DNA of 61,791 nt, taken from assembly GCA_035714365.1 (NCBI GenBank), contig DASTMB010000056.1, positions 1-61,791 of the forward strand, in the 5' to 3' direction. The notes beneath the pieces were generated by a model. It ran no database searches and was not told the DNA's origin. It saw nothing but the letters and a program-made list of their open reading frames with translations. Positions 17,971 to 57,848 of the stretch are shown piece after piece (position 1 is the stretch's first letter; each line of letters starts with the position of its first letter). Made by a program: the position numbers and the translations under genes. This stretch comes from Mycobacteriales bacterium (GTDB lineage: Bacteria > Actinomycetota > Actinomycetes > BP-191).

Positions 17971-18013
17971 ACGCCCCGCCTACCCGCGTCTCGCGCCTCG
18001 CTACCGTGGTCGC

Positions 18014-18535
18014 GTGCCCTCCGTCGACGCCGTCCGCGGCGACCTCACGGCGTTCGCGGCCGACGCGGTCGTCAACGCCGCCAACTCCTCGCTGCTCGGC
18101 GGCGGCGGCGTCGACGGCGCCATCCACCGCGCCGGCGGCCCGGCGATCCTGGCCGGGTGCCGCGCGCTGCGCGCGTCCCGCTACCGCGACGGCCTGCCCA
18201 CCGGCGAGGCCGTCGCGACCACGGCCGGCGACCTCCCGGCCCGCTGGGTGATCCACACCGTCGGCCCGGTCCACGCCGCCGTGCCCGACCCGGCGGCGTT
18301 GCTGCGCGCCTGCCACGTCAACGCGCTCCGCGTCGCGGACGAGCTGGGCGCGCGGTCGGTGGCGTTCCCGGCCATCTCCTGCGGCGTCTACGGCTACCCG
18401 CCGCGGGAGGCGGCGCCCGTCGCGGTGGGCGCGGTGCGCGACGCGGACACGGCCGTCGAGCGGGTGACGTTCGTGCTGTTCTCGGCCGAGACCCACGCGG
18501 CGTTCGCGACCGCACTTCCCGGATCGTCCGGTTAG
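18014..18535 (+). CDS. Macro domain protein (ADP-ribose deacylase/hydrolase type)
   Basis: A 173-aa single macro domain of the MacroD/YmdB class. Key segments are GDLTAFAADAVVNAANSSL, the Gly-rich loop LLGGGGVDGAIHRAGG, WVIHTVGP and SVAFPAISCGVYGYP, which together form the ADP-ribose pocket with the catalytic Asn and Asp. It removes acetyl or ADP-ribosyl groups from O-acetyl-ADP-ribose or modified proteins. The GTG start is at 18014 with TACCGT six bases upstream. Its stop shares TTAG (18532-18535) with the convergent 64-aa ORF of the deaminase operon. The nearness to a nucleotide-acting defence gene may be chance. Confidence 0.92.
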   Translation: MPSVDAVRGDLTAFAADAVVNAANSSLLGGGGVDGAIHRAGGPAILAGCRALRASRYRDGLPTGEAVATTAGDLPARWVIHTVGPVHAAVPDPAALLRACHVNALRVADELGARSVAFPAISCGVYGYPPREAAPVAVGAVRDADTAVERVTFVLFSAETHAAFATALPGSSG

Positions 18536-18726
18536 CTGCCGCTCGGCGCTTCCGCGCGCCGCGCCTCCACGACCTCCACCGCGTCGTGTTCCGCGCGTTC
18601 GTAGCTCGCGCGTAACGCGCTCTGCTGGAACTGGGGAAGGGAGTCGAACGCCCGACGTGCGTTCTCGATCACCTCCCGACGCGCGTTGGCCCGTGCCACC
18701 GCGGCATCCCGCTCCGAACGCGTCAA
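18532..18726 (-). CDS. Uncharacterised 64-aa protein coupled to the AvcD-type deaminase
   Basis: A 64-aa ORF, all-helical in appearance and highly charged, with ARREVIENARRAF and LRASYERAEHDAVEVVEARR. The TTG start (18726-18724) overlaps the deaminase stop in a TTGA junction, and AGGAGG lies 6 nt upstream, so translation coupling is likely. No membrane segment or known motif is visible. A possible DNA-damage-type promoter inside the deaminase 3' end (18835-18860) points at it, so it may also be expressed alone. It could be a regulator, antitoxin or accessory of the deaminase; this is inference from position only. Confidence 0.7.
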   Translation of the reverse strand: MTRSERDAAVARANARREVIENARRAFDSLPQFQQSALRASYERAEHDAVEVVEARRAEAPSGS

Positions 18727-20336
18727 CTCCGACCTCCTCTTGGCGTCTTGCGCGGTGCCGGCGAGGTAGGGGGAAGGCTCGCGGACCGGCGGGTGCGCTT
18801 GGCCGGACGAGCCGTACCTGTGCCTGCGTTCTTCAGTGTCGTAGGGGGGTGTGACAGATTCTCGGTCGGCGGCCGCTTGGTGTCATCCACCGTCTGGCCC
18901 AGCGAGCCGAGCGCGCTGATCTCGCGTGAGGCGATCGTCGACGGCTCGATCAGCGCGTCGACCTTCGGGAACGCGCCGGCGCGTTCGGCGTCGCCCCACT
19001 TGCGGCGCAGGCCGGTGGCGTCCTTGCGGTCGGAGACCGCGCTGAACAGCTGGGCGTAGCGACGCGGTGCGACACCGGTGAAGGGGTGGAAGGTGTCGCC
19101 CACCGCTGCACCGTACATCGCCTCTGCCCGGCTCTTCGGGTACGGCTCGAGGTAGACCACCTTGAGCGGGATCGCCACCAGGTGGCGAGCACAGTGGTGA
19201 CACGGGTACGCGGTCACGTACATCGTGCCGCCGATGACGTCCGCGCGGGCGCGCAACGCGGCCAGCAGAGCGTTCATCTCGGCGTGCACCGGACGCTGGA
19301 ACTCGATGAGGTTCCGCAGACGCGAGTCCGCGAGGACCCCGTCGAGGAGGCGGGCCGCGTACGTGTCGGGGTCCCGCGCCAGTTCCTGACGGGACTGCTC
19401 CGTGAGCACGTCGTTGCCCAGACGCGTCAGCGTGTCCACGAGCAGGTCGGCGATCTCAGTCGTGCTCGGGTCGAACTCCGGTAGGTGGTTCGGGTCGGGC
19501 TGTGCGTTGTGCCCGAGCCCGATGACCGCGTCGTCGGCGTTCACCAACGCCGCTCCGACCTTCAGGCCGAGTTCCGCCGACCGCGTACTCGTGACGTTCG
19601 CCAGGCTCATGCTGAACTCGGCCGGCGTCGGCGGCCGGTACACAGGGCTGTCGAACAACAGGTCCACCACACGGGTGACCTCGACGGGCACGTCCTGGTC
19701 GATATCGATGAACACGTCGGCCATGGGGAACGCGCGCATCGTGTTCTGCCCGTACACGTCCGTCTCGCGCAGGTCGCGGTCGATCAGCCGGTCGATGATC
19801 TCGTCGAGTTGCCGAGTCGTGATCGACGCACGCTGCGAACGGATCTTCGTCTCGAGCGTCTGGACCCGCGTCGCCCGGCTGGCCTGGAGCGAGACCACGA
19901 GCACGTGATCGCCGTAGAGGCGACGCAGGTGCGTCACCTCGGCCGGCCGCTTCAAGGAGTCGAGGACGTAGGCGGTACGAGCGACAGGGGTGTCGGCCGC
20001 TTCGCCGTTGGCGATGCCGAGCGCCGTGTTGGTCTCATGGCGGTAGGCACGGATCTCCGCCACCCCGAGCAGCGCTACGGCCGAGCCGGCGCCGTTATCC
20101 GCGCACAGGCGGTCCCCCTCGTCCATGAGCGCCTCGATCCGCGCTGCCTCATGGCGATCGGGGATCTCGCGCCCCTGCCGTACCGCCTCGTCACGGAGCA
20201 GGTCACTCAGCTTGATCTCGTGAACGGTGTACGCGTACTGATGCAGCACGCTCTTGAGCGCGTCATGGAACGCGTCTCCGCTCGTGCCGACAGGCCGGAC
20301 GATCGCGACCACGAGCTCAGGCCCCGTATTGGCCAC
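18723..20336 (-). CDS. avcD: Anti-phage dCTP/dCMP deaminase, AvcD type
   Basis: A 537-aa two-domain protein. The N-terminal part (PELVVAIVRPVGTSGDAFH, then VHEIKLSDLL; about 6-230) resembles the P-loop kinase-like domain of AvcD, though a full GxxxxGK(S/T) is not visible. DSLKRPAEVTHLRRLYG (126-142) is a typical segment. The C-terminal deoxycytidylate-deaminase domain has zinc ligands His351 with catalytic Glu353 (HAE) and Cys379/Cys382 (PCHHC). Known AvcD proteins deaminate dCTP/dCMP on phage infection and starve phage replication; an upstream RNA (AvcI) restrains them. Residues about 487-537 are an extra Pro/Arg/Thr-rich tail. The GTG start at 20336 has no clear SD sequence. Base composition is visibly less G+C-rich than its neighbours, suggesting horizontal acquisition. 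The 64-aa ORF is coupled downstream. Confidence 0.87.
   Translation of the reverse strand: MANTGPELVVAIVRPVGTSGDAFHDALKSVLHQYAYTVHEIKLSDLLRDEAVRQGREIPDRHEAARIEALMDEGDRLCADNGAGSAVALLGVAEIRAYRHETNTALGIANGEAADTPVARTAYVLDSLKRPAEVTHLRRLYGDHVLVVSLQASRATRVQTLETKIRSQRASITTRQLDEIIDRLIDRDLRETDVYGQNTMRAFPMADVFIDIDQDVPVEVTRVVDLLFDSPVYRPPTPAEFSMSLANVTSTRSAELGLKVGAALVNADDAVIGLGHNAQPDPNHLPEFDPSTTEIADLLVDTLTRLGNDVLTEQSRQELARDPDTYAARLLDGVLADSRLRNLIEFQRPVHAEMNALLAALRARADVIGGTMYVTAYPCHHCARHLVAIPLKVVYLEPYPKSRAEAMYGAAVGDTFHPFTGVAPRRYAQLFSAVSDRKDATGLRRKWGDAERAGAFPKVDALIEPSTIASREISALGSLGQTVDDTKRPPTENLSHPPTTLKNAGTGTARPAKRTRRSASLPPTSPAPRKTPRGGRS
18835..18860 (-). promoter_or_regulatory. PafBC/RecA-NDp-like promoter inside avcD
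   Basis: On the minus strand CTGTCACAC (18857-18849), 8 nt, then GACACT (18840-18835). Over 26 bases it differs at two positions from the site at 35769-35794. It would start transcription about 100 nt before the 64-aa ORF. Confidence 0.45.
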
Positions 20337-20403
20337 AGGCGCTACCCCCGTCCGACCCGTTCGTGGTCAGCAAACCATGCAGGGGTGCCCTCACCTCGGA
20401 TTT

Positions 20404-20424
20404 TCGCGCGGTTGAACCGCGCGA
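20404..20424. promoter_or_regulatory. Perfect palindrome in the avcD upstream region
   Basis: TCGCGCGGTT and AACCGCGCGA flank a single G: 10-bp arms, perfect. As RNA it can form an 8-bp stem with a TTGAA or TTCAA loop. It is 68 nt upstream of avcD and 60 nt upstream of the S15 gene. No T-tract follows on either strand, so it is not an intrinsic terminator; operator or structured RNA is more likely. The remaining 20337-20484 shows no ORF. Confidence 0.5.
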
Positions 20425-20484
20425 GGTCCTCGCGACTCCTCCGTTGGACCACTGATGCCCCTACGCCGCCCCGGGAGCCCCGGC

Positions 20485-22230
20485 ATGCGCCGTCCCCACG
20501 TCCTCGCCGCCCTCGCGCTGCTCGTCGCGCTGCTCGCCCCCGCCGCCGCGGAGCCGCCGCCGCTGGCCAGCGGCCCGTACCAGACCGGCTACCTCACGAT
20601 GGCCGACGGCACGCAGCTCCGGTACACGGTGTTCCTGCCGCCCGGCCCGGGGCCGTTCCCGACGATCATGGAGTACGACGTCTACGCCGCCGGCACCAAC
20701 CCGGAGGCGGGGCAGAGCCTGTTCGCCCCGGCGATGCGGGCCAAGGGGTACGCCGTGCTCGGCGTCAGCGCCCGCGGCTCCGGCTGCTCGTCCGGCGAGT
20801 TCGACGCGTTCTCGCCGCAGTCCGTGCTCGACGGCTACGCCGCCGTCGAGTGGGCGGCGAGCCAGCCGTGGTCCAACGGCTCCGTCGGCATGTACGGCGT
20901 CTCGTACCCGGCGATCATGTCGCTCTACGTCGCCGCGCTGCGGCCGCCGCACCTGCGCGCGATCGCGCCCGGCGCGGCGCTCACCGACCTGTACCGCGAC
21001 GTCGCGTACCCGGGCGGCATCCTCAACACGTCGTTCGTCGGGCTCTGGACCGCCGAGCAGAAGGGCACCGGCTACCAGGACACCGCGCTCGTCGTCGCCG
21101 CCGACGGCGGCGACCTCCGCTGCCCCGTCTGGACGGCCGGGCACCAGCAGCCGGACCGGGTCGCGGTCGCGCAGGCGGCGTCGGCGCCGTACGCGGACGA
21201 CGCGTTCTGGTCGCGCAGCCTCGGCGCGCGGATCGCCGACGTCGACGTGCCCGTGCTCTCGCTCACGGCGTGGCAGGACGAGCAGGTCGGCAGCCGCGTC
21301 GCGTCCGCCTACCAGGCGCTCGACCCGGCGACCTCGTGGCACGTCGTCGCGAACGGCGACCACGGCGTCAGCGTCACCGCGCCGGCGTTCGCGGCGCTGG
21401 AGCAGGAGTTCTTCGACCGGTTCGTCGGCGGCGTCGCGAACGGCTTCGAGACGGCCACGCCGCACGTCCAGGTGTGGCACGAGGTGCAGGCGCCGTCGTA
21501 CGCGCCGCGCTGGGTCACCGGGCACCCGGCGTGGCCGACCGTGACGCCGGTGACCTACGCGCTCACCGCCGACGGCCGCCTCGCCTCCGCGACGCCCGCG
21601 ACCCCGGGCGCCGTCTCCTACGCCTACCCCGGCACCGGCACGTCGACGGTCGCCTCCGGCCTCGGCGTTCCCGGCGAGCCGATCGCGTACGCGGCGCCGT
21701 CGACGGGCGCGGCGTTCACGACCGACCCGTTCGGCGGCGACGTCGAGCTCTTCGGCCCGGCCAGCGCCAACCTCTGGCTCTCCTCCACCGCGCGCGACAC
21801 CGACCTCCAGGTGACGCTGTCGGAGGTGCGGCCGGACGGGCAGGAGACGTTCGTGCAGCGCGGCTGGCTGCGCGCGTCGCACCGCGCGCTCGACCCGTCG
21901 TCCACGGCGCTGCTGCCGGTCCACCCGCACACGGCCGCGTCGGTCGCGCCGCTGGCGCCGGGCGTCCCGACGCCCGTTCGCGTCGAGGTCTGGCCGGCCG
22001 GCCACGTGTTCCGCGCCGGGTCGCGGCTGCGGCTCACCGTCGAGGCGCCCGTCGGCGTGACCGGGCTGCGCCAGCTCGCGATCCTGCCGACCCCGGCGGT
22101 GAACACCGTCCACGTCGGCCCGCTCACGCCGTCGCGGCTGGTGATCGGGACGGTGCCCGCGACCGGTGTCGTGGCGGCGTACCCCGAGTGCGGGACGGTC
22201 GTGAACCAGCCCTGCCGGACGGCGTCCTAG
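20485..22230 (+). CDS. Secreted CocE/NonD (S15 X-Pro dipeptidyl-peptidase-like) hydrolase
   Basis: A 581-aa exported serine hydrolase. The signal peptide is MRRPHVLAALALLVALLAP, cut near AAA. The alpha/beta hydrolase core has the nucleophile elbow GVSYPA in MYGVSYPAIMS (about 142-151), with the Asp and His expected in LTAWQDEQVGS and NGDHGVS. A jelly-roll X-ProDPP C-terminal domain follows (about 310-550), and two cysteines near the end could pair. Members hydrolyse acyl-peptides, esters or beta-lactam-like amides; the substrate here is unknown. ATG 20485 is preferred (GGGAG 7 nt upstream, and it places the signal peptide correctly); ATG 20455 is an alternative. The stop shares CTAG with the convergent ligD polymerase gene. 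Confidence 0.88.
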   Translation: MRRPHVLAALALLVALLAPAAAEPPPLASGPYQTGYLTMADGTQLRYTVFLPPGPGPFPTIMEYDVYAAGTNPEAGQSLFAPAMRAKGYAVLGVSARGSGCSSGEFDAFSPQSVLDGYAAVEWAASQPWSNGSVGMYGVSYPAIMSLYVAALRPPHLRAIAPGAALTDLYRDVAYPGGILNTSFVGLWTAEQKGTGYQDTALVVAADGGDLRCPVWTAGHQQPDRVAVAQAASAPYADDAFWSRSLGARIADVDVPVLSLTAWQDEQVGSRVASAYQALDPATSWHVVANGDHGVSVTAPAFAALEQEFFDRFVGGVANGFETATPHVQVWHEVQAPSYAPRWVTGHPAWPTVTPVTYALTADGRLASATPATPGAVSYAYPGTGTSTVASGLGVPGEPIAYAAPSTGAAFTTDPFGGDVELFGPASANLWLSSTARDTDLQVTLSEVRPDGQETFVQRGWLRASHRALDPSSTALLPVHPHTAASVAPLAPGVPTPVRVEVWPAGHVFRAGSRLRLTVEAPVGVTGLRQLAILPTPAVNTVHVGPLTPSRLVIGTVPATGVVAAYPECGTVVNQPCRTAS

Positions 22231-23141
22231 ACGGAGGCGGGGAGCTTCTGCTTCGTCGTCAGCACCGGCGCGAACAGGTCGCCGACCTCCGCCACCCGCT
22301 CCAGCGCCGCCGCCGCGTCGAACGTCAGCGGCCCCAGGTCGCCGGTCTCCGCGCACCCGGCGACCTCGTCCCACGTCACCGGCATCGACACCGTCGGGTG
22401 CGCCTTGGCGCGCAGCGAGTACACGCAGACCGTCGTCTTGCTGTCGACGTTCTGGCTCCAGTCGACCAGCACCTTGCCGACCCGCAGCTCCTTCTTCTGC
22501 CGCGACACGACCAGGCCCGGGTCCTCCTTCTCCAGCCGCACCGCGACAGACTTCGCGAACGGCGTCGTCCGGTCGTAGGTGGCACTCGGCTGGTTGACCG
22601 GCACGTAGACCTGGAGGCCCTTGCTGCCCGACACCTTCGCGAACGCCGCCAGCCCCAGCCCGTCGAACAGCTCCTTGAGCCGCATCCCCACGACGCAGCA
22701 CTCGTGCAGGTTCGCGGGCGCGCCGGGGTCGAGGTCGAACACCACCATCGTCGGCCGCTGCGGCGTCTTCGCCAGCGCCATCGTCGTGTGCAGCTCGAGG
22801 TCCGCGAGGTTCGCGACCCAGACCAGCGCGGCCAGCGAGTCGATGACGACGTAGTCGATGTCCCGGCCGTTGCTGTCGCTGTAGATCGGCGTCGTCCTGA
22901 TCCACGACGGCCGGTGCGCCGGCGCCTGCTTCTCGAAGAAGAACGGCGCGTCGACGCCGTTCGGGTACCGCTTCAGCGTCAGCGGCCGGCCCTTCAGGTG
23001 GGGGAGCAGCACCGGCGCGATGCGGGTGTAGTAGTCGATGACCTCGGCCTTGGTGAAGTGCGCCTCGGGGTAGAGCACCTTGTCCAGGTTGGAGAGCGTG
23101 AGCTGCCGCCCGTCGACCGCGACCTCGACCTTGGTACTCAC
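22227..23141 (-). CDS. ligD-pol: LigD-type primase-polymerase (NHEJ polymerase)
   Basis: A 304-aa archaeo-eukaryotic primase-fold polymerase. Motifs include LTLSNLDKVLYPE at the start, the YYTRIAPVLLPHLKGRPLTLKRYPNG region split here as KGRPLTLKRYPNGVD, the metal-binding MVVFDLDPG, VSGSKGLQVYVP and SLRAKAHPTVSMPVTWDEV. It adds ribo- or deoxynucleotides at breaks before ligation with Ku. In mycobacteria it is one domain of LigD; here it is a separate gene following the ligase, with the GTG start (23141) overlapping the ligase stop as GTGA and AGGAG upstream. Convergent with the S15 gene. Confidence 0.93.
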   Translation of the reverse strand: MSTKVEVAVDGRQLTLSNLDKVLYPEAHFTKAEVIDYYTRIAPVLLPHLKGRPLTLKRYPNGVDAPFFFEKQAPAHRPSWIRTTPIYSDSNGRDIDYVVIDSLAALVWVANLADLELHTTMALAKTPQRPTMVVFDLDPGAPANLHECCVVGMRLKELFDGLGLAAFAKVSGSKGLQVYVPVNQPSATYDRTTPFAKSVAVRLEKEDPGLVVSRQKKELRVGKVLVDWSQNVDSKTTVCVYSLRAKAHPTVSMPVTWDEVAGCAETGDLGPLTFDAAAALERVAEVGDLFAPVLTTKQKLPASV

Positions 23142-26256: not shown

Positions 26257-26349
26257 CCGGCCATGGCGTGGCACGTTCGCGCCGCGGGTAGCACGATGAT
26301 CGGGAACAGCGGCGCATGCCTCGCGCCGCCGACGCCGAAGGGGCTGGCC

Positions 26350-27279
26350 GTGCGTTCGATCTGGAAAGGCGCGATCTCGTTCGGGCTGGTGTCGATCCCG
26401 GTCAAGCTCTACTCCGCGACCGAGGAGCGCGACATCGCGTTCCGGCAGGTCCACCGCGAGGACGGCGGCCGGATCCGGTACCAGCGCGTCTGCACCAAGT
26501 GCGGCGAGGAGGTGTCGTACGCCGACATCGCCAAGGGGTACGAGATGTCCGACGGCAGCATCGTCGTCCTCACCGACGAGGACTTCGACAACGTGCCGAT
26601 CACCTCGAACCGCATGATCGACGTCGTCCAGTTCGTCCCGCTGGAGGAGCTCGACCCGATCTACTTCAGCAAGTCGTACTACCTCGAGCCGGAGAAGGCG
26701 GGCGTCAAGCCGTACGTCCTCCTCGCCCGCGCCCTCGAGGAGTCCGGCAAGGTCGCCGTGGTCAAGGTCGCGCTGCGCCAGCGCGAGGCGCTGGCCGCCG
26801 TGCGCGTCCGCGACGGCGTCTTCGTGCTGGAGACCATGCTCTGGCCGGACGAGGTTCGCACGCCGGAGTTCGGGTTCATGGACGACGACGTGGAGGTGCG
26901 CCCGCAGGAGCTCGCCATGGCGGGCACACTGATCGAGAGCCTGTCCGGGGAGTTCGACCCGAACGAGCACCACGACGCGTACCGCGAGGCGCTGGAGCAG
27001 GTCATCGAGGCCAAGGTCGAGGGCCACGAGCTGGTCGCCCCGGCCGAGCGCAAGGAGGACACCGGCGCCGTGGTCGACCTGATGGCCGCGCTGCGCGCCA
27101 GCGTCGACGCCGCCAAGAAGGGCCGGGTCGGCGGCGCGGCCGCCGCGGACACCGCCGCTCCGGCGAAGAAGGCGCCCGCAAAGAAGGCGGCGGCGAAGAA
27201 GGCCCCGGCCAAGAAGGCGGCGGCGAAGAAGGCACCCGCCAAGAAGGCCGCGAAGGCGCCGTCCCGCAAGTCCGCCTGA
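26350..27279 (+). CDS. ku: Ku DNA end-binding protein
   Basis: A 309-aa homodimeric Ku: RSIWKGAISFGLVSIPVKLYSAT at the start (positions 2-24, given here only as its first residues RSIWKGAISFGL), a CTKCGEEV segment, KSYYLEPEK and the bridge region to about 250. It threads onto DNA ends and recruits LigD. The last 45 residues are an Ala/Lys repeat (APAKKAAAKK units), an extended basic tail like that of some actinobacterial Ku proteins, where it aids DNA binding. GTG 26350 is chosen for the conserved VRSIWKG start and AAGGGG six nt upstream. It is not co-operonic with ligD, which is on the other strand 1.8 kb away. Confidence 0.96.
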   Translation: MRSIWKGAISFGLVSIPVKLYSATEERDIAFRQVHREDGGRIRYQRVCTKCGEEVSYADIAKGYEMSDGSIVVLTDEDFDNVPITSNRMIDVVQFVPLEELDPIYFSKSYYLEPEKAGVKPYVLLARALEESGKVAVVKVALRQREALAAVRVRDGVFVLETMLWPDEVRTPEFGFMDDDVEVRPQELAMAGTLIESLSGEFDPNEHHDAYREALEQVIEAKVEGHELVAPAERKEDTGAVVDLMAALRASVDAAKKGRVGGAAAADTAAPAKKAPAKKAAAKKAPAKKAAAKKAPAKKAAKAPSRKSA

Positions 27280-35767: not shown

Positions 35768-35794
35768 AAATCTGTCACACCCCCCGGCGACACT
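35768..35794 (+). promoter_or_regulatory. PafBC/RecA-NDp-like promoter upstream of a secreted protein
   Basis: CTGTCACAC (35772-35780), 8 nt, GACACT (35789-35794), 49 nt before the TTG start at 35844. It shares 24 of 26 bases (35769-35794) with the site inside avcD. Confidence 0.5.
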
Positions 35795-35843: not shown

Positions 35844-37973
35844 TTGCGCCGTCCCCTCGTCCTCGCCCTCGCCGTCGTGGTGCTCGCCGCGCCGGCCGCC
35901 GTCGCGAAGCCGAAGGACCCGAAGCCGCACCCCCACCCGCACAAGCCGAAGCCGGAGAAGGCCGTGGCGGTCCGGGTGTTCGACGACGCGCGCGCCGCGG
36001 CGCCGCTCGTGCTGACGGGCGCGCAGCTCCCCACCTGGTCGCGGCTGCCCGCCGAGGGCCTGGCCAAGACGTACCCGTCCGGCGCGACCACGACTGGCGA
36101 CTCGGTGCGCCACGCGCACAACGGCACGCTCGTCGTGCCGCCGGACGCCCGTACCGGCATCGACCCCGACCAGCTCGTCGCCTACCAGTGGAACGGCGCT
36201 TCGTTCGTCGAGGTCCCGGTGCAGGTCGACCAGCGGTTCCCGTACTTCCTCGCCAACGGCCGCTCCAGCTTCTCCACCTACTCCGGCACCGACGAGGAGC
36301 TCACGTACGCGTGGGCGCCCGACGCGCACGCGACCGGCGAGGAGGCGTGGAAGAAGGTCTTCGGCGACTGCGCCGCCCGCTACGCCACGGCGGCGGAGAA
36401 CGCCGCCCTCCCCGCGTACGCCAGCCCCGCGCCCGCCGGCTCGCTCGACACGCTCGGCTACACCGGCGCCATGCAGGACCCGGTGCCGACGCTGGACGAC
36501 GACGACGAGGTCGTCGTGCTCGCCCGCGACGCGGGCCTGCCCGCGCCGGCGACGGCGGCGTTCCCGGCCGGCGTGCACGACGCGCAGGCCGTCCGCGTCA
36601 CCGACCCGCTCGCGCCGCACCAGGCCGCGTACGTCTACCTGGCGCTGCGCCCGGCCGGCTCGACGTTCACCGCCGCCACCTCGCCGTACGTGACGATGGC
36701 GCGCGACGCGAACGCCGACGAGTGGATCGACCGGTACACGTTCACGCCGGACGACCCGGAGAAGATCGGCACCAGCAACACCGGCTACGGCCCGAACCTC
36801 CCCGGCACCGTCTGCCGCACCGCTGCCGGCAACGACGGCGGCATCACCGCCGCCGACGCCACCTCGCGCGCCTCGACCGACCGCGTCCCGCGCGACGGCA
36901 TGACCGTCACCACGCCGACCTACCGGCTCACCGCGACCGGCCGCTGGATGGTCCGCTCGCTCGCCGTCACCCGCCCCGGCACGACCGGCGACTACGGCCC
37001 CGACCTGATCAGCCGGTGGAAGGGGCGCGCGTTCCAGCAGAGCCCCGACTCGTCGGTCTCCGTCGTCGGCTTCGAGGACGAGCAGGTCAACTGGGAGGCC
37101 AACTCCGCGCTCCTCGGCTGGCGCGCCGGCCCGGTCCGCGCGATCCGCGAGGTGTGGGGCGCCGACTCCGGCACCAACGTCACCAAGACCGAGTTCTTCT
37201 ACCGCGACGCCGACGTCTTCAACTACCACGTCCGCGTCCACCCGATCCCGCCGGACGGCCTCTACACCTCGTGGAACTACAACCCCGGCGCGGTCAGCAC
37301 GTACTTCGACCTGGCCAAGCCGGACGGCGTCGCGATCGACGGCCGCAACGACGACGTGGGCCAGGTGGACGAGGTGCCCGTGAGCGGGCAGCCGGCGTTC
37401 TTCGACACCTGCGACCCGACGTTCGACGTCTGCTCCGCCGTCGAGAAGCCCGAGGAGGTCGCCGGCCCGAACGGCGGGCTCGTCTACCAGTTCGAGCTCA
37501 CCTCGCCGCACGAGCTGGCCGGCAACTTCGCGGCCGTCCCGTACTACCGCGACGACGCCTGCCTCGACGACGGCACCGGCGATACCCCCGTGCCGCGGCC
37601 GTGGCCGGGCGAGGCGCTCACCGACAGCCGCGTGAAGCAGGGCTACGTCGACTACTGGAAGGCGCACGGCGCGCCCGCCACGCTCACCTACGCCGACCTG
37701 AAGTGCGACCCGGCCGCCGACCCGGCGACCACGCCGGCCTGGCGGCGCACGCCGTTCGCGGGCGCGTTCGGCCAGCACGGCCTGCACTTCTTCGTCACGC
37801 AGGACAGCGACAACGCGTTCGGCCCGAAGCCGGTGGACGAGCTCGACGGCCAGCAGTGGCGGTTCGCGGTGCCGATGAACGCGCCGCGCAACGTCCTGCT
37901 CGACTACAGCAAGAACGTCAGCGCCAAGCTCGCGGCCGTCGTCACCCCGTTCGCCGCCTCCCCGGGCCTCTAA
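35844..37973 (+). CDS. Large secreted protein of unknown function
   Basis: A 709-aa protein with a Sec signal peptide (RRPLVLALAVVVLAAPAAVA) and a Lys/Pro/His linker (KPHPHPHKPKPEK). The mature part is globular and rich in Trp, Tyr and Asp: VPVQVDQRFPYFL, WKKVFGDC, DDDEVVVLARDAG, HQAAYVYLALRP, KTEFFYRDADVFNYHVRVHP and YDYW-like segments; at least eight cysteines. The pattern looks like a beta-rich extracellular enzyme or binding protein, but no family was recognised. TTG 35844 has GGAG six nt upstream. A DNA-damage-type promoter candidate lies before it. Confidence 0.82.
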   Translation: MRRPLVLALAVVVLAAPAAVAKPKDPKPHPHPHKPKPEKAVAVRVFDDARAAAPLVLTGAQLPTWSRLPAEGLAKTYPSGATTTGDSVRHAHNGTLVVPPDARTGIDPDQLVAYQWNGASFVEVPVQVDQRFPYFLANGRSSFSTYSGTDEELTYAWAPDAHATGEEAWKKVFGDCAARYATAAENAALPAYASPAPAGSLDTLGYTGAMQDPVPTLDDDDEVVVLARDAGLPAPATAAFPAGVHDAQAVRVTDPLAPHQAAYVYLALRPAGSTFTAATSPYVTMARDANADEWIDRYTFTPDDPEKIGTSNTGYGPNLPGTVCRTAAGNDGGITAADATSRASTDRVPRDGMTVTTPTYRLTATGRWMVRSLAVTRPGTTGDYGPDLISRWKGRAFQQSPDSSVSVVGFEDEQVNWEANSALLGWRAGPVRAIREVWGADSGTNVTKTEFFYRDADVFNYHVRVHPIPPDGLYTSWNYNPGAVSTYFDLAKPDGVAIDGRNDDVGQVDEVPVSGQPAFFDTCDPTFDVCSAVEKPEEVAGPNGGLVYQFELTSPHELAGNFAAVPYYRDDACLDDGTGDTPVPRPWPGEALTDSRVKQGYVDYWKAHGAPATLTYADLKCDPAADPATTPAWRRTPFAGAFGQHGLHFFVTQDSDNAFGPKPVDELDGQQWRFAVPMNAPRNVLLDYSKNVSAKLAAVVTPFAASPGL

Positions 37974-40902: not shown

Positions 40903-41016
40903 CCAACGCCCGGCCGGGCGCGGACACGCCGCGCGCGGTGCTCGAAAAACGCCGCCCCACCTGGCAGCGTGGAGCCTGACAGCCAGCCGGCTTACAGGCG
41001 ACAGGTGGTACCCGCA

Positions 41017-44000
41017 GTGCAGCAACCGTTCCGGCTCGTCCGCGGCGCGCCCGCCCCGGTCGTCCCCCCGGACCTGGACGAGGCCCAACGCGCCGTCGTC
41101 GACCACGCGGGCGGCCCGCTGCTCGTCCTCGCCGGCCCCGGCACCGGAAAGACCACGACCCTCGTCGAGGCCGTCGTCGCGCGCGTGGAGCGCGGGCTGG
41201 CGCCGGAGCAGGTGCTGGTCCTCACGTTCTCCCGCAAGGCCGCCGAGGAGCTGCGCGGGCGGATCACCGCCCGCCTCGCCCGCACGATCACCGAGCCGGC
41301 CGCGTGGACGTTCCACGCCTGGGCGTACGCCATCGTCCGCGCCTACGACACGCCGCCCGGCGAGCTGCCGCCGCGGCTGCTGTCGGGCGCCGAGCGCGAC
41401 GTGCGGGTCCGCGACCTGCTGCACGGCAACGCCGAGGGCATCGGCACCCGCTGGCCCAAGGACGTGGTGCCCGCGCTCAAGACGCGCGGCTTCGCCCGTG
41501 AGGTCGCGGACCTGCTGGACCGGGCGCGCGAGCGCGGCCTCTCCGGCACCGACCTCGCCGCCCTGGGCGAGCGGGAGGAACGCCCGGAGTGGGTGAGCGG
41601 CGGCACGTTCCTGGACGAGTACCTCGACGTCCTCGACGCCGCCCGCGAGATGGACTACGCCGGGCTGGTGGCCCGCGCCCACGGCGTGCTGTCGCAGCGC
41701 GACGTGCTGGAGGCGGTGCGGCAGCGGTACGGCGCGGTGTTCGTGGACGAGTACCAGGACACCGACCCGTCGCAGGAGGCGTTGCTGCGGCTGGTCGCGG
41801 GCGACGGCCGCGACCTGGTGGCGGTGGGGGACCCGGACCAGTCGATCTACGCGTTCCGCGGGGCGGACGTGGGCGGCATCCTCGGCTTCGCCGACCGGTT
41901 CCGCACGACGGCCGGCGAGCCGGCGCGGGTCGTGACGCTGCGGGTGTCGCGCCGGGCGGGCGCGGCGCTGCTGGCGCCGAGCCGAGCCGTCGCCGCGCGG
42001 ATCACGACCCCCGGCCTCAACCCGGACGTCGTGCGGGCGCACCGCGACCTGGTGCCCGCCGGGCCGGAGGGGGAGCCGCCGGACGTCGTGCTGTTCCCCA
42101 GCGCGTCGCAGGAGGTCGCCTACATCGCCGACCGGCTGCGCCGTGCCCACCTGTACGAGCAGGTGCCGTGGTCGCGGATGGCGGTGCTGGTGCGCAGCGG
42201 CGTGCGCAGCATCCCGGTGCTGCGGCGGCAGCTCGCGCAGTCCGGCGTGCCGGTGACCGTCGCGGCCGACGAGGTGCCGGTGGCGCGCGACCCGGCGGTG
42301 GCGCCGTTGCTGGCGGCGCTGCGGATCGCCGCCGACCCGGACCGGCTGGACGCCGACACGGCGGCGTTGCTGCTGCTCTCGCCGCTGGGCCACGCGCTGC
42401 CGAGCCGGCTGCGCGTGCTCGGCCGGCAGCTCCGGGCGCTGGCGCGGGCGGCGGGCGAGCCGTTCCCCCCGCCGGCGACGGAGTTGGTGCGCCGGGCCGT
42501 GCTCGACCCGCGCGACCTCACGACGGTCGACGCGGACGCCGCGGACCCGGTGTACCGGCTGGTCCGGCTGCTCGACGACGCCCGCCGCGTCCTCGGCAAC
42601 GGTGGCACGCCCGAGGAGGCGCTCTGGCAGCTCTGGCACGGCAGCGGCTGGGACCGCCGCCTGGAGGCCGACTCGCTCGCCGGCGGCACCGCCGGGCGGC
42701 AGGCCGACCGCGACCTCGACGCGGTGCTGGCGCTGTTCGCGGCGGCGGCGCGGCTGGAGGAGCGCGAGCCGCACGGCGGCGTCGCGACCCTCCTCGCCGA
42801 GCTGGAGGCGCAGGAGATCCCCGCCAACGCCCACGAGGAACGCCCCGGCGCCGCTGACGCGGTCCGCCTGCTCACCGCGCACCGCGCGAAGGGCCTGGAG
42901 TGGGACCTCGTCGTCGTCGCCGGCGTGCAGGACGGCGTCTGGCCGGACCTGCGCCGCCGCGGCTCGCTGCTCGACGCCGACCTGGTCGACCTCGGCGCGC
43001 CCCGCCCGCCGGCGCTGCCCGCGCAGCTCCTCGTGGAGGAACGCCGCCTGTTCTACGTCGCGCTGACCCGCGCCCGCCGCCGCCTGCTGGTCACCGCCGT
43101 GCAGTCGGTGGACGACGCGGCGGCGCGGCCGAGCCGGTTCCTCTCCGAGCTCGGCGTCGAGGTGCCGGAGGTCGCCGTCCTCGCCGGTGCCGCGCGCGGC
43201 GAGGAGGTCGGCCTGCTCGCGCCGTCGTCGCTGGTCGCCCGGCTGCGCCGCGCGCTGCGCGACGGCTCGCCGGAGCTGGCCAACGCCGCCGCCCGCACCC
43301 TCGCCGACCTCGGCACCGCCACCGCCGACGACGGCACGCCGTTCTTCCCCGGCGCCGAGCCGCTCACCTGGTGGGGCACCCGCGACCTCACGCCCGGCGT
43401 CGCGCCGCTGCGCGACCCGGAGCAGCCGGTGCCGGTGTCGCCGTCGGGGCTGAAGGCGTTCGGGGAGTGTCCGTTGCGCTGGTTCCTGGAACGCGAGGGC
43501 CGCGCGCGCGGCGCGCAGACGGCCGCGCAGGGCTTCGGCACGGTGCTGCACGCGCTCGCCCAGCTCGTCAGCGACGGGATGCTGCCGCCGGACCGCGACG
43601 TGCTGCTCGCCAAGCTGGACGAGGTCTGGCCGTCGCTCGGCTTCGAGGCGCACTGGCACGCCGCCGCCGAACGCCGCGCCGCCGAGGTGACCGTCGACCG
43701 GCTGCTGACCTGGCTGGCCGCGCGCGGCGACCGGACGTTCGTCGCGGCGGAGGCGGCGTTCGAGGCGGAGATCGGCGGGGTGCTGCTGCGCGGCAGCGCG
43801 GACCGCCTCGAGGTCGACGCGGAGGGGCACGTGCACGTCGTCGACTTCAAGACCGGGCAGACGCCGCTGTCGCTCGGGGCGACGGCGATGGACCCGCAGC
43901 TCGGGGCGTACCAGCTCGCGATCCGCGCGGGCGGCTTCGCGACGTTGAAGCCGGAGGCGGTGCCGGGCGGCGCGACGCTGGTCTACCTGCGCAAGGGCAC

Positions 44001-44196
44001 CGCGTCCGGCCTGCCGACCGAACGCGCCCAGGCCGCGCTCGGCGACGGCACCACCTGGGCGGACACGCTGCTGGCCACGACCGAGCGGGCGATGCGTGCC
44101 GAGGACTTCCCGGCGACGCCGAACGACCGCTGCGGCTCGTGCGACTTCCGCGGCGCCTGCCCGGCGATGCCCGGCGGCCGGCAGGTGGTGCCGTAG
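41017..44196 (+). CDS. adnA: AdnA-like helicase-nuclease subunit
   Basis: A 1059-aa UvrD-like SF1A helicase with a C-terminal RecB-like nuclease, one half of AdnAB, which resects DNA breaks before recombination in actinomycetes. Walker A is GPGTGKTT (40-47), Walker B VDEYQD (Asp244), motif IV-like GDPDQSIYAFRG, and HRAKGLEWD. The nuclease has VVDFKTG (Asp943, Lys945). Cys818, Cys1039, Cys1042 and Cys1048 form a C...CxxCx5C Fe-S cluster pattern like AddB/AdnA. GTG 41017 is preferred (AGGTGG eight nt upstream); 41005 and 40969 are in-frame alternatives. It joins adnB with TAGTG. Confidence 0.93.
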   Translation: MQQPFRLVRGAPAPVVPPDLDEAQRAVVDHAGGPLLVLAGPGTGKTTTLVEAVVARVERGLAPEQVLVLTFSRKAAEELRGRITARLARTITEPAAWTFHAWAYAIVRAYDTPPGELPPRLLSGAERDVRVRDLLHGNAEGIGTRWPKDVVPALKTRGFAREVADLLDRARERGLSGTDLAALGEREERPEWVSGGTFLDEYLDVLDAAREMDYAGLVARAHGVLSQRDVLEAVRQRYGAVFVDEYQDTDPSQEALLRLVAGDGRDLVAVGDPDQSIYAFRGADVGGILGFADRFRTTAGEPARVVTLRVSRRAGAALLAPSRAVAARITTPGLNPDVVRAHRDLVPAGPEGEPPDVVLFPSASQEVAYIADRLRRAHLYEQVPWSRMAVLVRSGVRSIPVLRRQLAQSGVPVTVAADEVPVARDPAVAPLLAALRIAADPDRLDADTAALLLLSPLGHALPSRLRVLGRQLRALARAAGEPFPPPATELVRRAVLDPRDLTTVDADAADPVYRLVRLLDDARRVLGNGGTPEEALWQLWHGSGWDRRLEADSLAGGTAGRQADRDLDAVLALFAAAARLEEREPHGGVATLLAELEAQEIPANAHEERPGAADAVRLLTAHRAKGLEWDLVVVAGVQDGVWPDLRRRGSLLDADLVDLGAPRPPALPAQLLVEERRLFYVALTRARRRLLVTAVQSVDDAAARPSRFLSELGVEVPEVAVLAGAARGEEVGLLAPSSLVARLRRALRDGSPELANAAARTLADLGTATADDGTPFFPGAEPLTWWGTRDLTPGVAPLRDPEQPVPVSPSGLKAFGECPLRWFLEREGRARGAQTAAQGFGTVLHALAQLVSDGMLPPDRDVLLAKLDEVWPSLGFEAHWHAAAERRAAEVTVDRLLTWLAARGDRTFVAAEAAFEAEIGGVLLRGSADRLEVDAEGHVHVVDFKTGQTPLSLGATAMDPQLGAYQLAIRAGGFATLKPEAVPGGATLVYLRKGTASGLPTERAQAALGDGTTWADTLLATTERAMRAEDFPATPNDRCGSCDFRGACPAMPGGRQVVP

Positions 44197-47100
44197 TGCG
44201 CACCGTCGTCGTGCCCGACGAGTCGGGCGAGTACCTCCGCCTCCTGCTGCGCACCGACTACACGCGCGAGCAGCTCGACGTCGCCACGCACCCGCTGGAG
44301 CCGGTGCTCGTCGTCGCCGGCGCCGGCTCCGGCAAGACCGCCGTGATGGCCGCGCGGGTCGTGCACCTCGTGGCGTTCCACCGGGTGCCGCCGTCGGAGA
44401 TCCTCGGCCTGACGTTCACGAACAAGGCCGCCGCCGAGCTCGCCGACCGGGTCGCCCGCGCCCTGCGCGGCCTGGCCGCCGCGGGCTGGGCGGACGAGCT
44501 GCTGGACGACGACCAGCCGACGGTAGCGACGTACCACGCGTACGCCGCCCAGCTCGTCCGCGACCACGCGCTGCGCATCGGCCGCGAGCCGCAGAGCGAG
44601 CTGCTCACCGAGGCGATGCGCTGGCAGGTCGCGGCGAAGGTGGTGCGCTCGGCGCGGCACGAGTTCCGGTACCTGCCGTGGCAGCCGGCCAGCGTCGTCG
44701 GCAAGGTGCTCACGCTCGACGCGGAGATGTCCGAGCACCTCGTCGGCGCCGACGCCGTGCGCCGCGCCGACGCGGCGATCGCGGGCGCCGTCGACCGGCT
44801 CACCAAGACGACGAAGGAGCTGGACGCCTGCGGCGAGACCGCGCGCTCCCGCGACGACCTGGTCGCGCTGGTCGAGCTGTACCGCGCCCGCAAGGCCGAG
44901 CTGGACCTCATCGACTTCGGCGACCAGGTCGCGCTCGCGGCCGAGATCGCCGGGCGCGCGCCGGAGGTGGGTGCGTTCGAACGCGCCCGCTACCGCGCCG
45001 TGCTCCTGGACGAGTACCAGGACACCGGCGTCGCGCAGCGGGTGCTGCTGTCGGCGCTGTTCGGCGGCGGCCACCCGGTCACCGCCGTCGGCGACCCGAA
45101 CCAGGCCATCTACGGCTGGCGCGGCGCGTCGGTCGGCAACCTCGCGCGGTTCCCCGAGCACTTCGCCGCGCCGGACCGGCCGACGCGGACGCTCGCGCTG
45201 ATGACGTCGTTCCGCTGCGGGCCGCGCATCCTCTCCCTCGCCGCCGCGGTCGCGGAGCCGCTCGCGTCGTCGCCCGCCGCGGGGCGCCGCCCGCCGGTCG
45301 ACGTGCGCCCGCTGTCGCCGCGCGAGGACTGCCACGACGACGAGGTCCGCGTCGCGCTGCTGGCCGGCGCCGACGAGGAGGCCGCGTGGGTCGCCCGGTC
45401 GGTCAAGGAGGCGTTGCGCGACCTCGGCCTGCCGCCGCGCGACGCGGCGGTGCTCTGCCGCCGGCGCACCGACTTCGCGATCCTGCACCGCGAGCTGGTC
45501 GCGGCCGGGCTGCCGGTCGAGGTCGTCGGCCTCGGCGGGTTGCTGGAGATGCCGGAGGTCGCCGACGTCGTCGCGACCCTGCGCGTGCTGGTGGACCCGG
45601 TCGCCAACCCGTCGCTGCTGCGGCTGCTCACCGGCGTCCGCTGGCGGATCGGGCCGCGCGACGTCGCCGCGCTCGGCCGCCGCGCCGCGCGGCTCGCCTC
45701 GTGGCTGCCGCGCGAGAACGCCGCCGACGTCGACCCGGTCACCGCCGCCGCGGCCGGCGTCGACCCGAGCGAGGTCGTGTCGCTGGTGGACGCGCTCGAC
45801 TCGCTCGGCGACGCGGCCGAGTACAGCCCCGAGGCGTACGAGCGGCTGGAGCTGCTGCGCGACGAGCTGCGGGCGTTGCGCGGCAAGGTGGGCCACCCGG
45901 TGGTCGACGTCGTCGCCGACGTGATCGCGCGCAGCGGGCTGGACGTCGAGATCGAGTCGCTGCCCGCCGGCGTCGCGGCCGCGCGCGCGGCCAACCTGTC
46001 GGCGTTCCTCGACCACGCGGCCGGCTTCGCCGGGCTGGTGGAGGGGCAGGCGGACCTGCCGGCGTTCGTGGCGTTCCTCGAGGCCGCCGAGGACGCCGAG
46101 AACGGCCTCGACGCCGGCGGCGTCTCCAACGCCGACACCGTCAAGCTGCTCACCGTGCACAAGGCGAAGGGCCTGGAGTGGCCGGTCGTCGCCGTGCCCG
46201 GGCTGGTGGAGAAGGTGTTCCCGTCCGAGCAGGGCCGCCCCCGCTGGACCTCGCGCGCCGAGGTGCTGCCGTACGCGCTGCGCGGCGACGCCGCCGACCT
46301 GCCGCCCGACCCGGAGTGGAGCAGCCCGGCGCTGAAGACGTTCAAGGCCGACTGCGGCGCCGAGTCCGCCGACGAGGAACGCCGCCTCGGCTACGTCGCG
46401 TTCACCCGCGCGCAGCGGCTGCTGCTGCTGTCCGGCTACTGGTGGGGCCAGACCCGGCAGACGGTGTCCGGTCCGTCGGCGCTGCTGCGCGAGGCGGCGG
46501 CGTTGGATGACGTCGTGACGGTCGCCGAGTGGGCGCCGCAGCCGGCCGTCGAGGACGACAACCCGCTCCGCGCCGTCCTCACCCGGCCGGTCCCGTGGCC
46601 GGCGCCGCTCGACGCCGCCGCCCTCGCCGAACGCGTTGCCGCCGCCGAGCTGGTCCGCGCCGCCGCCGCCGGCACGCTGCCCGCCGTCGAGCTGGCCGGC
46701 GCCGACGCGCGCACCGCCGCGACGTGGGCGCGCGAGGCCGAGACGCTGGTCGCCGAGGCGCGGCGGCTGCGCGCGCCGACCCGCGACGTGCCGCTGCCCG
46801 AACGCCTCACCGCCAGCCAGGTGGTCCTCCTCGCCGAGGACCCCGACGCGCTGGCCCGGCGGCTGGCGCGGCCGGTGCCGGTGCCGCCGTTGCGCGCCTC
46901 GCGGCGGGGCACGCGGTTCCACGCCTGGGTCGAGTCGCTGTGGGACGCGCGGCCGCTCGTCTACGAGGAGGACCTGCCCGGCGCGGCCGACGCGCCGGAC
47001 CTGGACGACGCCCGCCTCGCCGAGCTGCGCGAGCGGTTCCTCGCCACCGAGTACGGCCGCCGCCGCCCGGTCGCGATCGAGGCGCCGTTCGAGCTGATGG

Positions 47101-47402
47101 TCGGCGGGCGGCTGGTGCGCGGGCGGATCGACGCCGTCTACGCCGACGCCGACGGCGGCTTCGACGTGGTCGACTTCAAGACCGGTACCGTGCCGCGCGA
47201 CTTCGCGGCGGCGTCGGTGCAGCTCGCCGTGTACCGGCTCGCCTGGGCCGCGATCGCCGGCGTCGACGCGGCGCGGGTGCGGGCCGGCTTCCTCTACGTC
47301 GCCACCGGCACGGTGAAGCGCCCCGCGAAGCTGCTCTCCTACGACGAGCTGGACGCCTTGCTGTCCGAGCCCGCCGTGGGCGCGCAGGGCGCGTTGTTCT
47401 GA
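44196..47402 (+). CDS. adnB: AdnB-like helicase-nuclease subunit
   Basis: A 1068-aa partner of AdnA. Walker A is GAGSGKT (42-48), Walker B LLDEYQD (Asp272), GDPNQAIYGWRGA, motif V-like HKAKGLEWPVV and FTRAQRLLLL (motif VI). The C-terminal nuclease has RGRIDAVY and VVDFKTGT (Asp993, Lys995). No Fe-S cysteine set is present at its C-terminus, unlike AdnA. In mycobacteria the AdnB motor is the main translocase and both subunits cut DNA. The GTG start is at 44196, sharing one base with the AdnA stop, so equal expression is expected. Confidence 0.93.
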   Translation: MRTVVVPDESGEYLRLLLRTDYTREQLDVATHPLEPVLVVAGAGSGKTAVMAARVVHLVAFHRVPPSEILGLTFTNKAAAELADRVARALRGLAAAGWADELLDDDQPTVATYHAYAAQLVRDHALRIGREPQSELLTEAMRWQVAAKVVRSARHEFRYLPWQPASVVGKVLTLDAEMSEHLVGADAVRRADAAIAGAVDRLTKTTKELDACGETARSRDDLVALVELYRARKAELDLIDFGDQVALAAEIAGRAPEVGAFERARYRAVLLDEYQDTGVAQRVLLSALFGGGHPVTAVGDPNQAIYGWRGASVGNLARFPEHFAAPDRPTRTLALMTSFRCGPRILSLAAAVAEPLASSPAAGRRPPVDVRPLSPREDCHDDEVRVALLAGADEEAAWVARSVKEALRDLGLPPRDAAVLCRRRTDFAILHRELVAAGLPVEVVGLGGLLEMPEVADVVATLRVLVDPVANPSLLRLLTGVRWRIGPRDVAALGRRAARLASWLPRENAADVDPVTAAAAGVDPSEVVSLVDALDSLGDAAEYSPEAYERLELLRDELRALRGKVGHPVVDVVADVIARSGLDVEIESLPAGVAAARAANLSAFLDHAAGFAGLVEGQADLPAFVAFLEAAEDAENGLDAGGVSNADTVKLLTVHKAKGLEWPVVAVPGLVEKVFPSEQGRPRWTSRAEVLPYALRGDAADLPPDPEWSSPALKTFKADCGAESADEERRLGYVAFTRAQRLLLLSGYWWGQTRQTVSGPSALLREAAALDDVVTVAEWAPQPAVEDDNPLRAVLTRPVPWPAPLDAAALAERVAAAELVRAAAAGTLPAVELAGADARTAATWAREAETLVAEARRLRAPTRDVPLPERLTASQVVLLAEDPDALARRLARPVPVPPLRASRRGTRFHAWVESLWDARPLVYEEDLPGAADAPDLDDARLAELRERFLATEYGRRRPVAIEAPFELMVGGRLVRGRIDAVYADADGGFDVVDFKTGTVPRDFAAASVQLAVYRLAWAAIAGVDAARVRAGFLYVATGTVKRPAKLLSYDELDALLSEPAVGAQGALF

Positions 47403-55842: not shown

Positions 55843-55865
55843 CTGTCCCACCCGGCTGCGAGACT
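55843..55865 (+). promoter_or_regulatory. PafBC/RecA-NDp-like promoter of uvrD2
   Basis: CTGTCCCAC (55843-55851), 8 nt, GAGACT (55860-55865), then six bases to the GTG at 55872. Same architecture as the sites at 18835-18860 and 35768-35794; here it drives a DNA repair gene. Confidence 0.55.
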
Positions 55866-55871
55866 GTCGGG

Positions 55872-57848
55872 GTGCACCCGGATGCTGTGATCGCCGCGCT
55901 CGACGAGGAGCAGCGGTCGGCCGTGCTCGCGACGCGCGGGCCGGTGTGCATCCTCGCCGGGGCCGGCACCGGGAAGACGCGCACGATCACGCACCGGATC
56001 GCGTACGGCGTCCTCACCGGCGCGGTGCAGCCCGACCACGTCCTGGCGGTCACGTTCACCGCGCGGGCGGCGGGGGAGCTGCGGGGGCGGTTGCGGGGGC
56101 TCGGTGTGGAGCGGGTGCAGGCGCGGACGTTCCACGCGGCGGCGTTGCGGCAGCTCACGTACTTCTGGCCGCGCGTCGCCGGCGGTGAGATGCCGCGGCT
56201 GGTCGAGTCGAAGTTCTCCCTCGTCGGCAACGCCGCGTCCCGCACCCGGCTGCGCCCGTCCGGGCCGGAGCTGCGCGACCTCGTGTCCGAGATCGAGTGG
56301 GCGAAGGCGCGGCTCGTCACGCCCGCGTCGTACGAGGCCGCGGCGGCCGCGCTGCACCGGGAGCCGCCGTTCGAGCCGGAGACCGTCGCCGAGGTGTTCG
56401 CGACGTACGAGGAGCTGAAGCGCCGCGGCGGGCAGCTCGACTTCGACGACCTGCTCGGCCTGACGGCGGTGGCGATCGAGGACCACGAGGACGTCGCCGA
56501 CGAGGTGCGCGCGCGGTACCGGCACTTCGTCGTGGACGAGTACCAGGACGTCTCGCCGTTGCAGCAGCGCCTGCTCGACGCGTGGGCCGGCGACCGCGAC
56601 GACGTCTGCGTCGTCGGCGACGACGACCAGACGATCTACTCGTTCACCGGGGCGTCGCGGGAGTACCTGCTCGGCTTCCCGTCCCGGTACCCCGAGGCGA
56701 CGGTGGTCCGGCTGGTCCGCGACTACCGGTCCACGCCGCAGGTCGTCGGCCTCGCCAACCGCGTCCTCGCCGGCGGCAAGCGGCTCGTCGCGCAGCGGCC
56801 GGACGGGCCGGATCCGGTGTTCTCGGCGCACGACGACGAGCCGGCCGAGGCCGCCGAGGTCGCGCGCCGGTGCGCGGCGCTCATCGCGTCCGGCGTCCCC
56901 GCCGGCGAGATCGCCGTCCTCTACCGGATCAACGCGCAGTCCGAGGTCTACGAGGCCGCGCTCGCCTCCGCCGGCGTGCCGTACGTCGTCCGCGGCGGCG
57001 AGCGGTACTTCGACCGGCCCGAGGTGCGCGAGGCGATGGTCGCGCTGCGCGTCGCCGCCCGCGACGCGGTGCCCGGCGAGGCCGGCGCGCTGGCCGACGA
57101 GGTGCGCGTCGCGCTCGGCGCGATCGGCTGGACGCCGGAGGAGCCGGCCGCCCGCGCGGGCGCGGTGCGCGACCGCTGGGAGGCGCTCAACGCGCTCGCC
57201 GGACTGGCCGAGGAGGCCGCCGCACGCGCGTCCGGCGCGCCGACGCTCGGCGAGTTCGTCGCCGAGCTGGAGCAGCGTGCCGCCGACCAGCACGTGCCGT
57301 CCGTCGCCGGCGTCACCCTCGCGTCGTTGCACGCCGCCAAGGGCCTGGAGTGGGACGCGGTGTTCCTCGTCGGGCTGGTCGACGGGACGTTGCCGATCCA
57401 GCACGCCGTGACACCCGCCGAGGTCGAGGAGGAACGCCGCCTGCTCTACGTCGGCGTCACCCGCGCCCGCGAGCACCTGCACGTGTCGTGGGCGTACGCG
57501 CGGGCCGCGGGCGGGCGGCGCACCCGGCGCGTGTCGCGGTTCCTCGAGGGCATTGTGCCGGCCGCCGCGCGGCCCGCGCCGAAGCCGGCCAAGGCCGCGC
57601 GGGACGCCGCGCTGGAGTCGCTCGGGCCGGACGAGCGGGCGCTGTTCGACCGGCTGCGCGACTGGCGGCGCGAGCGGGCGGCCGGGCTCGGGCAGCCGGC
57701 GTACTGCGTGTTCACCGACGCGACGTTGACCGCCATCTCCAAGGCGCGGCCGGCGGCGGTCGCCGACCTGGCCGGCCTGCCCGGCGTCGGGGCGACGAAG
57801 CTGGACAAGTTCGGCCATGAGGTGCTCGCGTTGGTTGCGGATTCGTAA
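55872..57848 (+). CDS. uvrD2: ATP-dependent DNA helicase UvrD2
   Basis: A 658-aa SF1A helicase with a C-terminal HRDC domain. Walker A is AGAGTGKTRT (29-38), Walker B VVDEYQDVSP, GDDDQTIYSFTGA, DYRSTPQVV, LHAAKGLEWDAV and YVGVTRAREHL. The HRDC-like domain (about 580-658; LRDWRRERAAGLGQPAYCVFTDATL, given as LRDWRRERA and AYCVFTDATL) ends LPGVGATKLDKFG. The four-cysteine motif that links helicase and HRDC in mycobacterial UvrD2 is absent. It acts in DNA repair or replication restart. The GTG at 55872 appears leaderless. Confidence 0.92.
   Translation: MHPDAVIAALDEEQRSAVLATRGPVCILAGAGTGKTRTITHRIAYGVLTGAVQPDHVLAVTFTARAAGELRGRLRGLGVERVQARTFHAAALRQLTYFWPRVAGGEMPRLVESKFSLVGNAASRTRLRPSGPELRDLVSEIEWAKARLVTPASYEAAAAALHREPPFEPETVAEVFATYEELKRRGGQLDFDDLLGLTAVAIEDHEDVADEVRARYRHFVVDEYQDVSPLQQRLLDAWAGDRDDVCVVGDDDQTIYSFTGASREYLLGFPSRYPEATVVRLVRDYRSTPQVVGLANRVLAGGKRLVAQRPDGPDPVFSAHDDEPAEAAEVARRCAALIASGVPAGEIAVLYRINAQSEVYEAALASAGVPYVVRGGERYFDRPEVREAMVALRVAARDAVPGEAGALADEVRVALGAIGWTPEEPAARAGAVRDRWEALNALAGLAEEAAARASGAPTLGEFVAELEQRAADQHVPSVAGVTLASLHAAKGLEWDAVFLVGLVDGTLPIQHAVTPAEVEEERRLLYVGVTRAREHLHVSWAYARAAGGRRTRRVSRFLEGIVPAAARPAPKPAKAARDAALESLGPDERALFDRLRDWRRERAAGLGQPAYCVFTDATLTAISKARPAAVADLAGLPGVGATKLDKFGHEVLALVADS

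Follow-up and report, generated by a model that had tools for sequence, protein, structure and literature searches.

We propose that three sites in a 61,791-nucleotide stretch of DNA from a Mycobacteriales bacterium (the window) are very probably copies of a clade variant of the PafBC-type DNA damage promoter, with uvrD2 as a conserved member of the regulon and with the gene for a 709-residue predicted secreted protein and a 64-residue open reading frame (ORF) as likely members in this species only. The element recurs at DNA-repair genes throughout the genome, in two congeners, and in many families of Actinomycetota, with a spelling downstream of its TGTC half-site that differs from the mycobacterial consensus.

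Three sites in the window

A pattern scan of the whole window returned exactly three matches to CTGTC(A/C)CAC-N8-GA(C/G)ACT, at the positions and on the strands given by a sequence-only reading of the same DNA: cTGTCCCACCCGGCTGCGAGACT directly before uvrD2 (positions 55843 to 55865, plus strand), cTGTCACACCCCCCGGCGACACT upstream of the gene for the 709-residue protein (35772 to 35794, plus strand), and cTGTCACACCCCCCTACGACACT in the 3' tail of avcD (18835 to 18857, minus strand). A fourth match to CTGTCMCAC-N8-GASACT was absent from the window even when three mismatches were allowed, and the palindrome GAAC-N4-GTTC of the LexA SOS box was absent from all three sites. Under a first-order Markov model, the expectation for the pattern was 0.019 per genome and 0.0003 per window, both being post hoc figures since the pattern was drawn from the sites themselves. 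In the 3.8-Mb genome, TGTCNCAC-N8-GANACT occurred four times, three of them in the window, and its reversed-pattern control did not occur.

For an independent test, a weight matrix was built from the sites of two congeneric genomes only and the window was then scanned with it. The three reported sites took ranks 1 to 3, with 25.9 bits for the copy in avcD, 25.2 bits for that upstream of the 709-residue protein, and 15.9 bits for that of uvrD2, and the next match scored 10.5 bits; in 20 simulated windows, the mean maximum was 10.1 bits and the highest score was 14.5 bits. The uvrD2 copy is thus the weakest of the three. Because the training set consisted mostly of near-exact sites, weak functional sites score low with this matrix, the values being 17.5 bits for recA and 13.8 to 17.8 bits for uvrD2.

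The part of the shared pattern that the sequence-only reading took as its defining -10-like box, GA(C/G)ACT, turned out to be incidental. Across the genus, the box reads T/C/G-A-N-N-N-T and mostly begins with TA (first base T in 30 of 45 genus sites), so that the GA carried by all three window copies is a minority form. The genome-wide scan suggested in the same reading, TGTC-N12-GANNNT, proved too loose, with 7 matches in the window against 3.2 expected and about 184 per genome expected by chance.

Distribution of the element and its target genes

By relaxing the original pattern against the whole genome (3.8 Mb in 98 contigs), we arrived at TGTCACACCCC-N6-ANNNT, which had 15 exact copies against 0.02 expected under a Markov model; with up to one mismatch, there were 27 copies against 1.2 expected, and the reversed-pattern control gave 1. 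The 45 genus sites furthermore share a short T/A-rich patch 5' of the half-site and a C at position 12 (39 of 45). An ATG or GTG lies 6 to 8 nt past the box at many of them, and leaderless mRNAs are therefore predicted.

Exact copies precede uvrA, radA, lhr, a PDDEXK (RecB-like) nuclease gene, an RNase_T/GIY-YIG exonuclease gene, and a DUF222-HNH nuclease gene, the lhr and radA assignments resting partly on reading of the translations; a DUF3263 gene, conserved small unknown proteins, and others are also among the targets. One-mismatch copies precede uvrB, a gene for a dGTPase-like HD phosphohydrolase, a second PDDEXK nuclease gene, the rpsF operon, which would contain ssb if it is built as in most actinobacteria, and a LysM gene, where a LexA-type box adjoins the element. 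Since about one such match is expected, some of the one-mismatch matches, e.g., that at aceE, may be due to chance. Upstream of recA, an SOS box was accompanied by TGTCACAGCGGCTCCCTACCGT, a looser copy of the element. In the window, a Ku gene (26263 to 27279) and an AdnAB-like helicase-nuclease pair (40969 to 47402) are without the element.

The same search in the two congeners found 31 and 46 sites, whereas the controls had 2 and 1, respectively. Among 30 of these sites that were read, the genes for the exonuclease and the RecB-like nuclease appeared again as targets, as did uvrA, uvrB, radA, and lhr, and one congener had further targets reading, by translation, as ligA, dnaB, and rmuC. Beyond the genus, the exact element was found in 108 of 396 Actinomycetota genomes, with up to 24 copies per genome and few control matches in total; it was frequent in families outside the class of the window and rare in most sampled families within it. 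When one site from each of 29 element-carrying genomes was read, the targets included recA (2), radA (2), rmuC (2), a UvrD-type helicase matching uvrD2, DUF222/HNH, and DUF3892. Enrichment at DNA-repair genes, recA included, is expected of a PafBC/RecA-NDp promoter, and the sequence-only reading had staked its claim on it; such targets were indeed found in this genome, in the congeners, and in other families. Members of the damage response could be predicted with the element, conserved small proteins of unknown function and defense loci among them.

It is highly improbable that we are dealing with constitutive leaderless promoters, of the ordinary sigma-A or another kind, that happen to share GC-rich sequence. 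A -10-like ANNNT box is found at sigma-A promoters in general, and the uvrD2 genes of other families do have leaderless -10-like boxes without TGTC; nevertheless, such promoters would not account for a fixed 11-base block, TGTCACACCCC, that stands at a fixed distance from the box and that, across many families, is found predominantly at repair genes.

Besides the repair genes, a family of small proteins with conserved cysteines (CxxC...ACxDC; L043, L121, L125, and L133) is repeatedly found downstream of the element in different families and is a target in this genome as well, which makes it a candidate damage-response protein.

Relationship to the PafBC promoter

The mycobacterial element has been described as tTGTCRgtg-8 nt-TannnT (PMC5656591). 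In mycobacteria, single-stranded DNA (ssDNA) activates PafBC, which places itself between the promoter and sigma-A domain 4, with PafB contacting the -26 element (PMC11804915). Like the RecA-NDp/P1/PafBC promoter of mycobacteria and streptomycetes, the element described here has a TGTC half-site, a 12-nt distance to the -10 box, and an ANNNT box, and TGTC followed by 12 nt and NANNNT describes both the three window sites and the genome-wide set. It also shares with that promoter its repair targets, including recA, and a genome that encodes pafBC. It differs in that TGTC is followed by ACACCCC(C) rather than by RGTG (directly after TGTC, the three window sites carry ACAC or CCAC) and in that the first base of the -10 box varies among T, C, and G. 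The PafBC/RecA-NDp-like architecture proposed in the sequence-only reading therefore holds for the half-site, the spacing, and the nANNNT box, whereas the RGTG part is replaced by ACACCCC. Overall, that reading appears to have been right in kind though not in detail, the three sites being real copies of the actinobacterial DNA damage promoter element in a clade-variant spelling.

We also considered the canonical form as the one used here and rejected it: TTGTCRGTG-N8-TANNNT had no exact match in the genome, the best match having one mismatch, and the list obtained with two mismatches was diffuse (145 matches versus 40 in the control). No description of the ACACCCC form was found in the open-access papers searched, and its novelty is provisional. 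A scan with TTGTCRGTG would miss this form here and in many actinomycetotal families, and the PafBC-type response would accordingly extend past the mycobacterial consensus. This raises the question of how PafB, PafC, and the bases after TGTC have coevolved.

WYL-domain matches in the genome were confined to a tandem pafB-pafC pair near a gene reading as tatC. PafB and PafC match chains AY and AX, respectively, of the Mycobacterium smegmatis initiation complex (7p5x), at 7e-71 and 3e-66. These matches bear on whether another activator, of the ClgR type or otherwise, reads what would still be a damage-response promoter, a reading that we regard as quite improbable. In its favor, ACACCCC after TGTC departs from the mycobacterial RGTG, and binding of ClgR to that mycobacterial element had at one time been proposed (cited in PMC5656591); however, the half-site, the spacer, and the ANNNT box all agree with the PafBC promoter, and the genome encodes no WYL proteins other than PafB and PafC, which are close to a structurally characterized pair.

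By analogy with the mycobacterial complex, we infer PafBC as the regulator, together with induction by damage and the positions of transcription starts. Upon damage, ssDNA would bind the WYL domains of PafBC, which would then insert between sigma-A domain 4 and the DNA; PafB would read the TGTC half-site near -26, and sigma-A would open the nANNNT -10 box. Transcription would start 6 to 8 nt past the box, usually at the start codon, giving a leaderless mRNA.

Two other damage-response systems are comparable. The LexA SOS box is also present in this genome, upstream of recA and beside the LysM gene, but it is a palindromic repressor site separate from the element. The DriD-type regulon of Caulobacter resembles the proposed PafBC response in having an ssDNA-sensing WYL activator of a non-SOS damage response (PMC12340889), but it belongs to another phylum and uses another operator.

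uvrD2, the predicted secreted protein, and defense loci

The uvrD2 gene (55872 to 57848, plus strand), encoding a UvrD helicase with an HRDC domain, has its GTG start codon 6 nt past the -10-like box, and its mRNA is therefore predicted to be leaderless, as the earlier reading had suggested. In both congeners, the aligned element, TGTC-N12-GAGACT, stands directly before the start codon, 7 nt from the GTG, and the nucleotide alignment with one of them resumes at the element, which indicates that uvrD2 is a genus-conserved, although weak, member. Furthermore, a uvrD2-like gene with an exact copy in front of it was found in another family.

The 709-residue predicted secreted protein (35844 to 37973, plus strand) has a TTG start codon that aligns with the GTG starts of its congeneric homologues. 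The protein had no match in Pfam, NCBIfam, or PDB, and its homologues reach the Gammaproteobacteria (Nevskiales and Moraxellaceae, with approximately 44 to 49% identity). Its start codon lies 49 nt past the box, unlike the leaderless majority. None of the 11 homologous upstream regions whose flanks could be read, from both congeners and from further Frankiales homologues, contained the element; one homologue (L177) has a distant match to TGTC-N12-nANNNT, 462 nt upstream, such as chance alone would produce. Statistically, the site is real, but it is species specific. The suggestion that this secreted protein belongs to a damage regulon is weakened by these homologues, and at best the gene may have been recruited to the regulon in this species only.

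The third site lies in an avcD-type anti-phage dCTP deaminase gene (18723 to 20336, minus strand). The conserved models cover the protein up to residue 438 (NCBIfam) or 487 (PADLOC), and the element starts at codon 494, past the conserved domain and about 44 codons before the stop codon. Given this position near the 3' end, we rejected the site as a promoter of avcD itself. Most likely, it would serve a downstream RNA or the 64-residue ORF (18532 to 18726, minus strand), the TTG start of which lies approximately 108 nt downstream of the element and 6 nt after AGGAGG. Neither a Pfam match nor a plasmid homologue was found for this ORF. Together with a macrodomain-like ORF, so labeled from reading of the sequence, and an S15 peptidase gene, it and avcD form an accessory islet (18002 to 22236), a 4.2-kb stretch that alignment showed to be missing from one congener (G001). 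This absence and the lower G+C content of avcD (0.685 versus 0.752) are consistent with horizontal acquisition. A search of viral contigs found no AvcD relatives, and those on actinobacterial plasmids were examined for gene order only.

The peculiarities of these last two copies could also mean that both are isolated and are nonfunctional or accidental, with uvrD2 as the only real regulon member of the three. Such a reading would accommodate the absence of the 709-residue gene's site from the congeners and of the avcD region from one of them, the location of one copy within an ORF, and the unusual distance of the other from its start codon. We nonetheless consider it rather unlikely: at 0.02 exact sites expected per genome, two in a single window are very unlikely to be accidental, and the 64-residue ORF has a good ribosome-binding site at a plausible distance. 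We therefore prefer to regard both copies as putative species-specific promoters of the PafBC type.

Use of the element by phages was also examined. Among the matches listed for viral contigs (121 sites), leaderless-type ORFs followed 15, versus 8 on the opposite side, and no clear case emerged. Elsewhere in the genome, the cyclase gene of a type II CBASS operon (oligonucleotide cyclase, E1-E2, and JAB; approximately 1535 to 4765 of L344, G000:C23:19000-24000) has a one-mismatch copy near its start. Besides, an exact copy and a good ribosome-binding site precede a locus encoding large proteins that weakly match Olokun OloA/OloB in PADLOC (L345/L047, G000:C37:34000-39500). It is possible, if doubtful, that a PafBC-type promoter of a sequence class recurrent across Actinomycetota has been recruited to the avcD islet, the type II CBASS operon, and the Olokun-like locus, which would imply that anti-phage defense is coupled to an ssDNA damage signal in this lineage.
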